Of a DNA stretch of 64,000 nucleotides, positions 23,651-28,103 are shown one piece after another (positions within the stretch are counted from its first letter, which is position 1; the number at the start of each line of letters is the position of its first letter). This DNA comes from Sphingomonas sp. JUb134. Lineage in GTDB: Bacteria > Pseudomonadota > Alphaproteobacteria > Sphingomonadales > Sphingomonadaceae. Location: NCBI RefSeq assembly GCF_004341505.2, contig NZ_SLYP02000001.1, positions 3,000,501-3,064,500 of the forward strand, read 5' to 3'. Position numbers and translations under genes: made by a program. Below the pieces are notes generated by a model, which was given only the letters and a program-made list of their open reading frames with translations, did not search any database and was not told the origin of the DNA.

Positions 23651-24688
23651 TCATCCGCCGCCCTGCCCCAGCAGATTGTGCCGGCGCAGCGCGTGGCGCA
23701 GCTGGTCGTAGCTCAGCCCCAGCGCCTCCGCCGTGGTGCGCTGGTTGAAGCGGTTCTCGGCAAGCGCGCGCGACAGCAGCTCGCGTTCGAAGCGGTTGAC
23801 CCGCGTCTTGAAGTCGGCCGGCTCGAAGTCGTGCTCCACCGGCACCTCGGCCGTCGTTGGCGGCCCCGGCTCGGCCACGGCGGGCGCCACCGATGCGGGT
23901 GCCTGGCCGCGCGGACGATAGGGCGATGCGAAGGGGTCGATCTCGATGCCGTCGATCGGCCCCGGACGTTCCCAGCGATAGACGGCGCGCTCCACCACAT
24001 TGCGCAGCTCGCGCACGTTTCCGGGCCAGGGATGGCTGGTGAGCGCGTCGAGCGCGGCGGGGCCGAAACCCGGCCACACCTCGCGCCCGATCTCCGCCGC
24101 CATGCGGCGCCCGAAGAACTCGGCGAGCACTGGGATGTCGCCGGCGCGCGCACGCAGCGGCGGCAGCGTCACCACTTCGAACGACAGCCGGTCGAGCAGG
24201 TCGGCACGGAAGGTCCCCGCCGCCACACGATCGGGCAGATGCTCGTTGGTCGCCGCCACGATGCGGACGTCGACGTGGAGCGGCCGCGAGGATCCGATCC
24301 GCGTCACCTCGCCATATTCCACCGCGCGCAGCAACCGGTCCTGCGCCGCCATCGACAACGTACCCAGCTCGTCCAGGAACAAGGTACCGCGATCGGCCTC
24401 CTCGAACCGTCCTGCCCGCGCCTTGGTGGCCCCGGTGAAGGCGCCCGCCTCGTGCCCGAACAGCTCTGCCTCGATCAGCGTCTCCGGGAGGGCCGCGCAG
24501 TTCATCACCACCAGCGGCTGGTCCCAGCGGGGCGACAGGCGGTGCAGACGCTCGGCCACCAGTTCCTTGCCGGTCCCGCGCTCGCCGATCACCAGCACCG
24601 GGCGGTCCAGCGCCGCGGCGCGGCTGGCCCGTTCCAGCGTGTCGAGGAAGGCCGTCGACTGGCCGATGACTTGGGTCGTGCGCTCCAT
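23651..24688 (-). CDS. pspF: Sigma-54 activator PspF
   Basis: 345 residues without an N-terminal sensing domain, as in PspF. The AAA+ domain has GERGTGKE (Walker A), the sigma-54 contact loop GAFTGA, LFLDELGTL (Walker B) and HPWPGNVRELRN. A proline-rich linker follows, then a Fis-type helix-turn-helix (TTAEALGLSYDQLRHALRRH). It is divergent from the psp operon. In known systems PspA holds PspF inactive until membrane stress. ATG at 24688 starts MERTTQVIGQS. Confidence 0.94.
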   Translation of the reverse strand: MERTTQVIGQSTAFLDTLERASRAAALDRPVLVIGERGTGKELVAERLHRLSPRWDQPLVVMNCAALPETLIEAELFGHEAGAFTGATKARAGRFEEADRGTLFLDELGTLSMAAQDRLLRAVEYGEVTRIGSSRPLHVDVRIVAATNEHLPDRVAAGTFRADLLDRLSFEVVTLPPLRARAGDIPVLAEFFGRRMAAEIGREVWPGFGPAALDALTSHPWPGNVRELRNVVERAVYRWERPGPIDGIEIDPFASPYRPRGQAPASVAPAVAEPGPPTTAEVPVEHDFEPADFKTRVNRFERELLSRALAENRFNQRTTAEALGLSYDQLRHALRRHNLLGQGGG

Positions 24689-24788: not shown

Positions 24789-24804
24789 TGGCACGGCTCC
24801 TGCA
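24789..24804 (+). promoter_or_regulatory. Sigma-54 promoter of the psp operon
   Basis: TGGCAC at -24 and TGCA at -12 with exactly ten bases between the invariant GG and GC, the sigma-54 spacing. It lies 56 bases before the first small gene and 100 bases from the divergent pspF start, leaving room for PspF sites upstream. Confidence 0.85.
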
Positions 24805-24859
24805 ATGCAAGGGACAAGCTCAGCAATCGGGCAGCACAACAGGTTCAGGGAGCACCACG

Positions 24860-25006
24860 ATGACGACCTACAACGCTACGAGCCTCAGCCGGACCCTCGC
24901 CAGCCTGATCGGCGCCTTGGTCCTCAGCACGGTGACGCTGGCGGCAACGACCAGCACCGGCCCGGCTCCGGCCTTCGCAGTATCCGCCGGCCACGCGATC
25001 GCGTGA
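24860..25006 (+). CDS. 48-aa membrane/secreted peptide, first gene of the psp operon
   Basis: ATG at 24860 follows AGGGAG (spacing seven) and encodes 48 residues: a polar N-terminus (MTTYNATSLSRTL), a hydrophobic helix (ASLIGALVLSTVTLAA) and a small-residue tail ending GHAIA. It sits directly behind the sigma-54 promoter and ahead of pspA, so it should be the most strongly induced product. Could be a membrane-damage sensor, a signal-peptide-like peptide, or a leader. Family unknown to me. Confidence 0.7.
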   Translation: MTTYNATSLSRTLASLIGALVLSTVTLAATTSTGPAPAFAVSAGHAIA

Positions 25007-25014
25007 CCGACGGC

Positions 25015-25050
25015 GGGCCGGGGCGGGATGTTGCCCCCTCGCCCCGGCCC
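25015..25050 (+). terminator. Strong hairpin between the 48-aa gene and pspA
   Basis: Perfect 11-bp stem (GGGCCGGGGCG, 25015-25025, with 25040-25050) and 14-base loop, starting nine bases after the small gene's stop. No T tract follows, so it may attenuate or stabilise the upstream mRNA rather than end transcription. Confidence 0.6.
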
Positions 25051-25079
25051 AACCGGAACACACACAGGAGTTTGAATCG

Positions 25080-25745
25080 ATGGGTATCTTTTCCCGCACC
25101 CGAGACATCATCGCCGCCAACGTCACCGATCTGCTCGACAAGGCGGAAGATCCCTCCAAGATGATCCGCATGATCATCCTTGAGATGGAGGAGACGCTGG
25201 TCGAGGTTCGGGCATCCGCCGCGCGCACCATCGCCGATCAGAAGGAGATGCGTCGCCACATCGCCAAGCTGCAGGGTCTGCAGGAAAGCTGGACCGAAAA
25301 GGCCGAGCTCGCCCTGTCGAAGAACCGCGAGGATTTGGCCAAGGCGGCGCTGATCGAGCGCAAGAAGGCCGCCGACATGGTCGAGCAGCTTTCCGGCGAG
25401 ATCCGCGTCCTCGACGACTCGCTGCGCAGCTCGGAAGAGGACATCGCCAAGCTGCAGAACAAGCTGCGCGAGGCGCGTACCCGCCAGAACGCGATCATGA
25501 CCCGGCTGGAAAGCGCCAACAACCGCAGCCGCCTGCGCGAGATGTATGCCGGCTCCAAGACCAACGAGGCGTTCAGCCGCTTCGAGGTGCTGGAACGCCG
25601 CGCCGATCTGGCCGAGGGTCGCGCCGACGCGCTGGGCATGGGTCAGGTCAAGACGCTGGAGGAAGAGATCGCCGAGCTCCAGTCGGCCGAAAAGATCGAC
25701 GCCGAGCTCGCCGCCCTGAAGGCGCGCATGAACAAGGAGGGCTGA
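25080..25745 (+). CDS. pspA: Phage shock protein A
   Basis: 221 residues, an ESCRT-III-like PspA/IM30 protein made almost wholly of helices. The start GIFSRTRDIIAANVTDLLDKAEDPSKMIRMII is the usual amphipathic membrane-binding helix and first core helix; long coiled coils follow. It binds damaged inner membrane and inhibits PspF. ATG at 25080 has AGGAG upstream. The next gene starts one base after its stop. Confidence 0.97.
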   Translation: MGIFSRTRDIIAANVTDLLDKAEDPSKMIRMIILEMEETLVEVRASAARTIADQKEMRRHIAKLQGLQESWTEKAELALSKNREDLAKAALIERKKAADMVEQLSGEIRVLDDSLRSSEEDIAKLQNKLREARTRQNAIMTRLESANNRSRLREMYAGSKTNEAFSRFEVLERRADLAEGRADALGMGQVKTLEEEIAELQSAEKIDAELAALKARMNKEG

Positions 25746-25746
25746 G

Positions 25747-26016
25747 ATGGACGACTTCCTCTCCGTCGCGGTGCCGATCGTCACGCTGTTCATCGGACTG
25801 CCGTGGCTGATCCTGCACTACATCACGCGGTGGAAGCAGGCGCCGACCCTGACCGGTGAGGACGAGAAGCTGCTCGACGAGATGCACTTCACGGCCCGCC
25901 GGCTGGAAGAACGCCTCCAGACGATCGAACGCATCGTCGCTGCCGACAACCCGGATTTCCGTCCTTCCGCGCCGGACGCTGCGGACCGTGAAATCGACTT
26001 TTCCCGGAGGAACTGA
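25747..26016 (+). CDS. pspB: Phage shock protein B
   Basis: 89 residues. One N-terminal membrane helix (VAVPIVTLFIGLPWLILHY), then the PspB pattern KWK-like TRWKQAP, LDEMHFTARRLEERLQTIERIV. E. coli PspB is about 74 residues; the extra tail ends DAADREIDFSRR and resembles the ends of the four following proteins. AAGGAGG precedes the ATG. Acts with PspC as membrane-stress sensor. Confidence 0.93.
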   Translation: MDDFLSVAVPIVTLFIGLPWLILHYITRWKQAPTLTGEDEKLLDEMHFTARRLEERLQTIERIVAADNPDFRPSAPDAADREIDFSRRN

Positions 26017-26017
26017 G

Positions 26018-26398
26018 ATGACCGCGCAACGCACCAAATTCTACCTCGACAAGCAGAATGCGAAGTGGTCGGGCGTGTGCTCCGGCATCGCGGACTACAC
26101 CGGTGTCGAGACGATGTGGATCCGCATCGGCGCCGTCCTGCTGACGTTGGCCGGCGGCTTCCCCTGGACCCTCATCGCCTATGCGATGATCGCCTGGATG
26201 GCGCCCAAGAAGCCGGTCGGCCTCTACGACAGCGAGGAGGATGCGAAGTTCTGGCAGGGCGTGCGCTCCAACCCGAAGCGCTCGACCGCGGAGATCCGCT
26301 CCACCTTCCGCGACATCGACCGCCGGCTGGCCGACATCGAGATGTTCTACACCAGCCGCAACACGCGCCTGGCCGACGAGATCGACAGCCTGCGCTGA
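26018..26398 (+). CDS. pspC: Phage shock protein C
   Basis: 126 residues. The PspC domain covers about residues 5-70 (FYLDKQNAKWSGVCSGIADYTGV, then a hydrophobic helix WIRIGAVLLTLAGGFPWTLIAYAMIAWMAP). The cytosolic tail ends with RLADIEMFYTSRNTRLADEI followed by DSLR, which aligns without gaps to the ends of the next three proteins. GGAGG precedes the ATG at 26018. Confidence 0.94.
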   Translation: MTAQRTKFYLDKQNAKWSGVCSGIADYTGVETMWIRIGAVLLTLAGGFPWTLIAYAMIAWMAPKKPVGLYDSEEDAKFWQGVRSNPKRSTAEIRSTFRDIDRRLADIEMFYTSRNTRLADEIDSLR

Positions 26399-26431
26399 GC
26401 GATTCCCGGGGGGCAAACAGGAGGAAGTATC

Positions 26432-26722
26432 ATGAGCTGGAGTGGACCGGGTTTCGTCATCGCCCTGATCGCGATCTCGACCTTCGGATTGGTGCTCAAC
26501 AACTGGATCCCTGCCCGCCACGGCTATCCGGTGGAGAACGAGTGGTCGGGCCTCAGCCGCAAGGAGGACCCCGAAGCCGAGCGCAAGATCGCGCTGCTTT
26601 CGAGCGAGAACGAGCGCCTGACCGGCAAGATCGGCCGGCTGGAAGAGCGGATCGCCGTGCTCGAGCGCATCGCCACCGATCCCGCCGCCCGCACGGCGCG
26701 CGAAATCGACGCGCTGCGCTGA
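26432..26722 (+). CDS. PspB-like small membrane coiled-coil protein
   Basis: 96 residues. One membrane helix (about 7-25), then RHGYPVENEW, a charged segment, and a coiled coil with ERLTGKIGRLEERIAVLERI, ending REIDALR. The RHGYP..W motif recurs in the next protein (KHGYPLDGAW). AGGAGG precedes the ATG. It is probably another envelope-stress partner of the PspA/B/C set; no family name is claimed. Confidence 0.85.
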   Translation: MSWSGPGFVIALIAISTFGLVLNNWIPARHGYPVENEWSGLSRKEDPEAERKIALLSSENERLTGKIGRLEERIAVLERIATDPAARTAREIDALR

Positions 26723-26744
26723 GCCCGACGAGAGGAGATCTGAG

Positions 26745-27071
26745 ATGAGCCCAGAAAAATACGCGCTGCTCCAAGGCCTCTTCCCCCTGATCGTGACCAT
26801 CGTCGCGGTTGCGGTCACCGGATGGGTCATCACCACCTGGATGCGCATCAAGCATGGCTATCCGCTCGATGGCGCCTGGGGGCAGGCCGTCTATCCGCAG
26901 AAGAGCGAGGAAACGATCGAGCGGGTTCGCCTGCTGAGCCAGGAGAACGCCCAGCTCCGTGCCGAACTCGGATCGGTCAAGGACCGGCTCGCGACGGTGG
27001 AGCGCATCGTCACCGACAGCGGCGCCCTGCTCTCCCGCGAAATCGACCAGCTGCGCGACCGCGCGAACTGA
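26745..27071 (+). CDS. PspB-like small membrane coiled-coil protein
   Basis: 108 residues. A membrane helix (LFPLIVTIVAVAVTGWVITTWM), then IKHGYPLDGAW, and a coiled coil with LRAELGSVKDRLATVERIVT ending SREIDQLRDRAN. Shares the HGYP..W motif and the terminal module with the preceding gene, so the two look like tandem duplicates that diverged. GAGGAG lies upstream of the ATG. Confidence 0.85.
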   Translation: MSPEKYALLQGLFPLIVTIVAVAVTGWVITTWMRIKHGYPLDGAWGQAVYPQKSEETIERVRLLSQENAQLRAELGSVKDRLATVERIVTDSGALLSREIDQLRDRAN

Positions 27072-27081
27072 AGGACCGACC

Positions 27082-27348
27082 ATGAGCCCTATTCTGATCC
27101 CGATCCTTGCGCTGATGATCCCGATCGTCGCGATCATCGGCAAGACCTTCGTGAAGCCCTGGCTCGATCATCGTGAGCGGGCGCTGGAGCTCGAAGCCAA
27201 CAAGCTCGCGGAAAAAGCGGCGCAATATGCGGCGCAGACGGAGCGGCTGGAGCAGCGGGTGCGCGTGCTGGAACGCATCGTCACCGACCGCGGCCTGGAT
27301 CTTTCCGACGAGATCGAGCGGCTGCGCGACCAGCCGCCGCTCAACTGA
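27082..27348 (+). CDS. PspB-like small membrane coiled-coil protein
   Basis: 88 residues. A hydrophobic N-terminus (ILIPILALMIPIVAIIG), a basic KPWLDHRERALELEANKLAEK stretch, and the module RVRVLERIVTDRGLDLSDEI followed by ERLR. Lacks the HGYP motif of its two neighbours. Ten bases after the preceding stop; AGGA lies before the ATG. Confidence 0.8.
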   Translation: MSPILIPILALMIPIVAIIGKTFVKPWLDHRERALELEANKLAEKAAQYAAQTERLEQRVRVLERIVTDRGLDLSDEIERLRDQPPLN

Positions 27349-27381
27349 CCACCCACGTCCACGCCCCATCGGAGCAGCGAC

Positions 27382-27621
27382 ATGACGGACCCGAATCTCA
27401 CCCTCGTCCTCGCCACCAGCGGCCTCGCCGCCGTGGCTATGGTCACCGCCGCAATGCTTGCGGGCTGGCGCGGCTGGCTGGCGCTCAAGCGGCAGGAACT
27501 CGCCCGGGTCGAAAGCGGCGAAGCGCCCAGCTTCGGCCACGCCGGCACCCGCATCGAACTCGCCGACCTCAAGGAGCGCATCCGCAAGCTGGAAGCCATT
27601 GCCGCCGGGGTCGACCTCTGA
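27382..27621 (+). CDS. Small membrane protein, last of the psp set
   Basis: 79 residues. A membrane helix (LATSGLAAVAMVTAAMLAGW) is followed by WLALKRQELARVESGEAP and a helix LADLKERIRKLEAIAAGVDL, which matches the front half of the terminal module but stops before the EID-x-LR tail. GGAGC precedes the ATG. A 9-bp hairpin follows its stop, so the psp transcript may end here. Confidence 0.75.
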   Translation: MTDPNLTLVLATSGLAAVAMVTAAMLAGWRGWLALKRQELARVESGEAPSFGHAGTRIELADLKERIRKLEAIAAGVDL

Positions 27622-27628
27622 TGCCGGC

Positions 27629-27653
27629 GCGGCGGCCTTTTGCCGGCCGCCGC
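27629..27653 (+). terminator. Hairpin at the end of the psp operon
   Basis: Perfect 9-bp stem (GCGGCGGCC / GGCCGCCGC) with a seven-base loop, eight bases after the last psp-type gene and 20 bases before sufE. No T tract follows. Confidence 0.5.
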
Positions 27654-27673: not shown

Positions 27674-28084
27674 ATGCAGTCCCTCGACGACATCCTCGAT
27701 GAATATGGCTTCCTCGATCCGGACGACCGCTATCGCCTGCTGATCGATCTGGGCCGCGCGCTGGAGCCCATGCCCGACGCGCTGAAGACCGATGCTACGC
27801 TGGTGCGGGGCTGCTCTGCTTCGGTGTGGGTCTACCCCACCCGGCGCGAGGACGGGACGCTCCACTTCCTGGCCGACAGCAACGCCGCCATCACCAAGGG
27901 AATCATCGCGCTGGTCCTCTCGGCGGTGCAGGACCAGAGCCCGGCGGCAATCCTCGCGACCGACGTTCCCGCGGCCCTCGCCCCCTTCGACTTGTCGAAG
28001 CAGCTGAGCTCCAACCGGACCCAGGGCATTCCCAACATGATCGCCCTGATCCGCCACGAGGCCGAACGCTACGCCGCCGGCTGA
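27674..28084 (+). CDS. sufE: SufE cysteine desulfurase accessory protein
   Basis: 136 residues. Accepts persulfide sulfur from the desulfurase SufS for iron-sulfur cluster assembly. The active cysteine lies in LVRGCSASVWV (about residue 48), and the SNAAITKGIIALVLSAV and SSNRTQGIPNMIALI segments are typical. Length matches E. coli SufE. ATG at 27674. No other suf genes are nearby. Its stop lies in a 28-base palindrome shared with the convergent gene. Confidence 0.94.
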   Translation: MQSLDDILDEYGFLDPDDRYRLLIDLGRALEPMPDALKTDATLVRGCSASVWVYPTRREDGTLHFLADSNAAITKGIIALVLSAVQDQSPAAILATDVPAALAPFDLSKQLSSNRTQGIPNMIALIRHEAERYAAG

Positions 28085-28103
28085 GGCGGCCGCCTCAGCC
28101 GGC
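28076..28103. terminator. 28-base perfect palindrome holding both stop codons
   Basis: The first 14 bases (GCCGGCTGAGGCGG) are followed directly by their exact reverse complement. The sufE stop TGA (28082-28084) lies in the left arm and the convergent gene's stop (28095-28097 on the minus strand) in the right arm, at mirror positions. A likely bidirectional terminator; the plus side continues TCTCTTT. Confidence 0.65.

Follow-up and report, generated by a model that had tools for sequence, protein, structure and literature searches.

In Yersinia, the phage shock protein (Psp) response is reportedly silenced by contacts between the cytoplasmic parts of PspB and PspC, according to the title of one paper. 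The operon behind this response guards the membrane of stressed cells. A known system close to the locus described here, the pspABCDE operon of Escherichia coli, has a divergent pspF and the gene order A-B-C, followed by pspD and pspE. We have analyzed a stretch of 64,000 nucleotides (hereafter the window) from Sphingomonas sp. JUb134, which contains a complete psp cluster with the same divergent pspF and the same A-B-C order; what follows pspC, however, is not pspD and pspE but a run of small genes that we call G1 to G4, at least three of which resemble pspB.

PspB and PspC are described as a membrane complex in which, in the on state, the C-terminal cytoplasmic domain of PspC binds PspA and frees PspF (passages of PMC5596341). 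The PspC of E. coli is said to adopt two topologies and to need a leucine zipper (residues 77–98) for its interaction with PspA (passages of PMC3068692). A mutant of Yersinia PspC at V125 is said to have lost the PspC–PspA interaction; for E. coli, the same passages hold that V105D abolishes PspC-dependent signaling, which is the authors' statement given without data, and that V105D is without influence in their own PspF assay (passages of PMC6003685).

The presence of "PspB duplicates" in psp operons, and of PspC fused to a divergent PspB, has been reported in passages of Ravi et al. (2024, PMC11237479), whose example AOL22920.1 resembles the window in having PspB copies within a pspFABC operon. 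The main text of that paper contains neither "Sphingomon" nor "Erythrobacter"; the copy number, G4 and the shared end of PspC are features of the window that lie outside its passages drawn on here. The sphingomonad gene set is thus a large, lineage-wide variant of an already published kind of PspB duplication. We found no paper joining phage shock, PspB and Sphingomonas-type names, and for PspB copies PMC11237479 is the relevant one. As far as our literature search shows, the scale of the amplification, its conservation throughout a lineage, the series of zero to six copies, the occurrence of a G4 type and the connection with the end of PspC are new.

A Module Shared among Proteins of the psp Operon

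A first-pass annotation of this DNA had proposed an enlarged psp operon in which six proteins carry versions of one C-terminal module. The open reading frames on which it relied are correct, with four small genes between pspC and a sufE-like gene, and the cluster is a psp operon by its divergent pspF, its sigma-54-like site and its PspF, PspA, PspB and PspC, all of which score above the curated Pfam or TIGR family cut-offs, whereas G1 to G4 exceed none. The module itself proved to be exact: 24 residues align without gaps in PspC (103–126, its end), G1 (73–96, its end), G2 (81–104) and G3 (59–82), with 10–14 of 24 positions identical in each pair. When the 824 window frames of at least 40 amino acids were compared with each of these four modules, the best three other matches were always the other three, with scores of 44–66, while the next frame reached 38 at most. 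The module would seem to be a part of ordinary PspC, because the window's PspC matches the TIGR02978 model to its last position (residue 125 of 126); relative to the PspC C-terminal domain (about 82–121 of TIGR02978), it extends to the end of the model and includes the region of V105. The PspC domain PF04024, on the other hand, was not found in G1 to G4 in a Pfam scan.

A profile (A1) was built from 24 relatives, in other genomes, of G1, G2, G3 and G5, the last being a module gene that is missing from the window; it holds no window sequence. Searched against the whole 4.1-Mb genome, it placed the six proteins of the first-pass proposal ahead of every other frame: G2 (E-value 8.8e-27), G1 (3.3e-25), G3 (1.3e-23), PspC (9.3e-4), G4 (0.027) and PspB (0.056), followed by unrelated frames at 0.30 and 0.35. 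The matches of G2, G1 and G3 are strong by themselves and those of PspC, G4 and PspB are not; the latter gain weight because ranks 4–6 in 4.1 Mb all fall within one operon.

The first-pass annotation had named two grounds for refutation, a profile likeness no better than that of unrelated coiled coils and absence of the set from close relatives, and neither was borne out. For the first, family profiles were compared with hhalign. The families came from the operons that we fetched, window rows included, with PspC reduced to 46 rows and PspA to 19 by length; the controls were 27 FtsB, 30 AtpF and 19 PspA rows, together with reversed profiles. G1, G2, G3 and G5 match one another at 98.8–99.9% and PspC at 93.1–94.5% (G3 93.1%), while matches to PspB are 92.0% for G3, 82% for G2, 71% for G1 and 29% for G5. 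G4 is linked to G3 (94.7%), to G5 (91.7%, over 16 columns), to G1 (70.4%) and to G2 (37.8%), and falls below 1% with PspC and PspB (PspB 0.8%). The FtsB, AtpF and PspA controls did not exceed 8.3% and the reversed profiles 19.2%, and the operon proteins are set apart from both by these tests. A module hidden Markov model, likewise built without window sequences, gave 24.2 bits for E. coli PspB (residues 7–63) and 7.3 bits for E. coli PspC, and at most -0.8 bits for the window's PspF, SufE, PspA and small open reading frame. On this evidence the six operon proteins appear to share a homologous module rather than a chance likeness of coiled coils.

The R-x4-E part of the module was counted on family alignments except in G5, where it was counted by pattern. 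Both residues are present in every member of PspB (47 and 47 of 47), PspC (46 and 46 of 46), G1 (32 and 32 of 32), G2 (39 and 39 of 39) and G4 (41 and 41 of 41), in 62 and 60 of 63 members of G3, and as a pattern in 42 of 42 members of G5. For PspB, the module core (R56–V64) stands, and the "displaced REID" that the first-pass annotation had counted as a further part does not: it occurs in 1 of 47 PspB sequences, that of the window. The claim that G4 keeps the first half only holds, and this half is strongly conserved among G4 proteins: of the 21 columns scored, 12 are identical in 41 of 41 members. G4 is, to all appearances, a more distant relative that has retained the first half of the module.

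For G1, G2 and G3, the description as putative PspB-like paralogues fits better than one as unrelated proteins with an acquired terminal module, because the similarity spans both the transmembrane segment and the helix. Columns 1–72 of the PspB profile align with columns 1–72 of the G3 profile (64 columns), and the 71–92% matches of G1 to G3 with PspB, above all controls, place them in a PspB-like superfamily. They share with PspB (PF06667/TIGR02976) the predicted single N-terminal transmembrane segment, the R-x4-E helix and the place in the psp operon. By hydropathy, G1 to G4 each have a single hydrophobic segment near the N-terminus and, after it, a flank of net positive charge, as in PspB. 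Unlike PspB, G1 to G3 fall below the family cut-offs, and their predicted cytoplasmic end also holds the second half of the module, EI(D/E)xLR, known from PspC; G1 and G2 differ from it further by a HGYP linker. These last two are similar over nearly their full length (residues 15–105 of 108, 34% identity, E-value 5.6e-17). In the AlphaFold2 model of G2 (helices 3–36, 45–49 and 54–107; predicted local distance difference test, pLDDT, 78), the transmembrane helix is joined by the HGYP linker, which is modeled with low confidence and includes a short helix, to a helix of 54 residues; the model of G3 is a single helix (residues 5–82, pLDDT 79). Among solved structures no sequence relative was found for PspB or PspC, and the five matches of PspB (E-value 0.5–1) are unrelated proteins.

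Distribution and Copy Number

The first-pass annotation had made its proposal depend on the presence of the set in close relatives, and 138 of 149 genomes of the Sphingomonadaceae, bacteria that live in soil and water, match A1; this and the other genome-search counts are lower bounds, since the number of candidates was limited. The matches per matching genome, which can include PspC and matches elsewhere, were one in 10 genomes, two in 13, three in 34, four in 39, five in 28, six in 11, seven in 2 and eight in 1, so that 115 of the 149 genomes have at least three, PspC included. Eleven genomes of the family are without an A1 match; nine of these are also without a PspA match, and in another (G598) the contig stops within pspC. 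With G2 as query, among 147 genomes sampled in the order, 61 of the 64 Sphingomonadaceae genomes listed matched, plus 8 others.

From 52 loci that were fetched, 6 without PspA and 3 from another family were left out, and in all of the remaining 43 Sphingomonadaceae operons the copies sit after pspC. Excluding G4, the module genes number one in 1 operon, two in 1, three in 13, four in 15, five in 10 and six in 3. G4 is present in 40 of the 43, and G5, a module gene of a third type, in 39, usually directly before G4. Two further operons (L320 and L321) have G4 without a module gene, and in the operons examined the extra copies between pspC and sufE range from zero to six. Among 81 named loci, all selected by a match to G2, pspA, pspB and pspC were recognized in 80 and the module genes number 2–6; for G2, the closest relative with a name comes from S. 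desiccabilis (97%).

A phylum sample gave 46 matching genomes of 398: 19 were Sphingomonadaceae, 18 with three to six matches and one with two, and the 27 others had one or two matches each. A spread through the whole class is rejected on an alphaproteobacterial sample with matches in 17 of 385 genomes, of which 5 are from Sphingomonadaceae and most of the others are weak. The set is a trait of the Sphingomonadaceae. In another family of the order, three genomes (L069, L070 and L083) have a single module gene after pspC, and the locus L179 of another genome has an extra PspB-like gene between pspB and pspC. G3 has 6,360 database matches; among the 120 listed, most of those with a name are "hypothetical protein", and some relatives carry the name "Phage shock protein B".

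In one operon (L059:5896-6416, plus strand), two adjacent genes of type III have the near-identical end IAVEKEDTLSRQIE, which suggests a recent duplication or gene conversion. A mobile or plasmid origin of the set was considered and rejected: the single match in a plasmid collection is to a large replicon with neighbor genes of chromosomal type. In S. parapaucimobilis (L182; NZ_CP155749.1, 772580-782852), the psp cluster, which has ftsY, superoxide dismutase and sufE as neighbors, is carried by a replicon of 880 kb labeled as a plasmid.

Possible Role of the Extra Proteins

Homology, operon position, lineage-wide conservation and variable copy number are borne out by the sequences. Beyond them, we think it fairly probable that the locus is a PspF/sigma-54 pspABC operon with an amplified PspB-like gene, the extra helices of which would mix with PspB and PspC and tune the switch. 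G1 to G4 would be made together with PspA, PspB and PspC on induction by PspF; the extra proteins would lie in the inner membrane with their helix in the cytoplasm, and would mix with PspB and PspC by means of the module helix. There, the additional helices could provide further docking sites for PspA, compete with PspB for the C-terminal domain of PspC, or both, and so set the threshold, the strength or the input range of the switch by which PspF is freed and PspA moved to the membrane; G4, with its half module, may be a capped or modified partner. A shared docking helix, for PspA or for the proteins among themselves and perhaps making a larger stress sensor, was also the first-pass suggestion. 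Its structural part is upheld by profiles and controls, in that the helix is a homologous unit and holds a PspC residue tied to PspC–PspA signaling; docking to PspA, PspC or PspB is the likeliest role of the extra proteins, because V105 of E. coli PspC (the V of RYVTS), stated to be needed for PspC-dependent signaling, lies within the module. The leucine zipper at 77–98 lies immediately before the module, or at its edge.

Several observations weigh against this amplified-switch reading. At the position that aligns with V105, V is found in 33 of 39 G2 and 36 of 63 G3 sequences, Y in 37 of 46 PspC sequences, and A in 20 of 32 G1, 41 of 41 G4 and, by pattern, 29 of 42 G5 sequences, so that the copies may not be equivalent and not every one need bind PspA. 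G1 to G3 lie under the curated cut-offs for PspB and PspC: G3 reaches 13.1 bits against 25.6 for PF06667 and 14.4 against 51.7 for TIGR02976, G1 12.5 against 51.7, and G2 has no match to either PspB model. The AlphaFold2 monomers are long helices (predicted template modeling score 0.33) and uninformative on partners. Finally, the genome G566 (L319), without an A1 match, has pspFABC-sufE with zero extra genes, and the set is therefore not indispensable.

Two more such observations concern PspB, and also speak for convergence of charged coiled coils in place of homology: the direct hhalign match of PspB with PspC is weak (12%), and a single-sequence PspB query of the whole genome (E-value up to 10) finds PspB only, so that the link to PspB requires profiles. 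Several weak Pfam coiled-coil matches to module proteins point the same way. The hhalign controls, which lie far lower, and the genome-wide profile search largely refute a coiled-coil chance, and we regard convergence as extremely improbable. A separate family of membrane proteins with a function of its own, merely cotranscribed with psp in sphingomonads, is a less remote alternative, and still an unlikely one. It would account for module proteins that occur singly or in pairs outside psp operons, which also count against the amplified switch and make the module not specific to Psp: no psp gene was recognized within stretches of about 10 kb around such genes in Thalassotalea-like, f153 and f5 genomes, nor at 12 distant loci from a total of 11 genomes outside the family, and in two genomes (L079 and L080) a zinc-ribbon-like protein bears the module away from psp. 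Against it stand the invariable place of the copies after pspC in the 43 operons and the PspA found in 8 of 8 tested genomes outside the Sphingomonadaceae with module matches.

More serious, if still doubtful, is the idea that the extra proteins are downstream effectors, namely small membrane proteins induced by PspF that would stabilize or scaffold the stressed membrane in the manner of PspG or PspD, outside signaling, the shared helix serving only for hetero-oligomers. The extra genes do follow the core genes within one run, their number varies from zero to six without loss of pspABC, as for accessory parts, and PspB and PspC are themselves said to have effector functions too (passages of PMC6003685). 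The extra proteins resemble the signaling pair PspB and PspC, however, and no such module is visible by eye in translated E. coli PspD.

An extension of the amplified-switch reading, to which we give only a minor chance, is a combinatorial Psp sensor. Up to about nine membrane proteins, namely PspB, PspC, G4 and as many as six module proteins, would share one exchangeable docking helix and form varying mixtures with PspA, through which different stresses would act on one PspF switch. Differing transmembrane segments and linkers would then feed in different envelope stresses, and the number of extra copies would tune the response between species. More generally, a natural series of zero to six extra helices of a kind implicated in the switch bears on how PspB and PspC sense stress; the residue changes at a position tied to PspA binding offer a ready-made set for mapping the residues that bind PspA, PspB and PspC; a role is suggested for the large protein group to which G3 belongs; and a stress sensor may gain extra docking or tuning parts.

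Layout of the Cluster and Other Observations

The features of the cluster are collected in table 1. From pspA through sufE the intergenic gaps in the window are of 1–52 bases, and overlaps of 4 bases are frequent between the corresponding genes of relatives. The sigma-54-like site is the only match to TGGCACRNNNNTTGCW with one mismatch in the 64-kb window; with up to two mismatches there are 17, not above chance. By reading the sequence, a similar site is seen in S. parapaucimobilis upstream of its own small open reading frame. Terminator-like stems number 2, against 2.1 expected in shuffles.

Table 1. Coordinates of the psp cluster in the window; transmembrane segments are predicted
Feature	Position	Strand	Evidence or detail
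pspF, sigma-54 activator, divergent	23651..24688	-	TIGR02974 474.2 bits, above cut-off
sigma-54 (-24/-12) promoter-like site TGGCACGGCTCCTGCA	24789..24804	+	1 mismatch to TGGCACRNNNNTTGCW
Small open reading frame, 48 amino acids, hydrophobic, between promoter and pspA	24860..25006	+	No Pfam or TIGR family match
pspA	25080..25745	+	TIGR02977 274.7 bits, above cut-off
pspB	25747..26016	+	PF06667 86.3 bits; module core R56–V64 at 25912-25938
pspC	26018..26398	+	TIGR02978 120.4 bits, residues 6–125; 24-residue module at 26324-26395
G1, PspB-like, single transmembrane segment, HGYP motif (type I)	26432..26722	+	Module 26648-26719
G2, PspB-like, single transmembrane segment, HGYP motif (type I)	26745..27071	+	Module 26985-27056
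G3, PspB-like, single transmembrane segment, AEKAAQYA (type II)	27082..27348	+	Module 27256-27327
G4, single transmembrane segment, first module half only	27382..27621	+	Conserved tail 27550-27618
sufE-like gene, syntenic cluster end	27674..28084	+	PF02657 120.8 bits
Terminator-like 12-bp stem, cluster end	28076..28103	+	Stem search; weak alone

A sufE-like gene lies 3' of the module genes in most of the sphingomonad psp clusters seen, and it is kept in L319, which has no module genes. The loci outside the Sphingomonadaceae with lone or tandem PspB-like module genes and no psp genes recognized nearby are L287-L298, L177, L068 and L071, from Thalassotalea-like and other genomes. Two Sphingomonadaceae genomes encode, away from their psp genes, proteins of about 130 amino acids with a G1-like module (L079:4228-4617 and L080:4513-4905); these have a CxxC zinc-ribbon-like N-terminus and no evident transmembrane segment, and the L079 protein scores 22.5 bits with PF20097 (DUF6487), for which the cut-off is 24.

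The small open reading frame before pspA has no family match in the Pfam and TIGR scans; its product is possibly a small envelope protein under PspF control. An annotated 48-residue hypothetical protein occupies the same place in S. parapaucimobilis (L182, 3412-3558). By eye, hydrophobic frames of similar size that end in A, of diverged sequence, were seen at this place in 11 of 17 sphingomonad loci and in L327.

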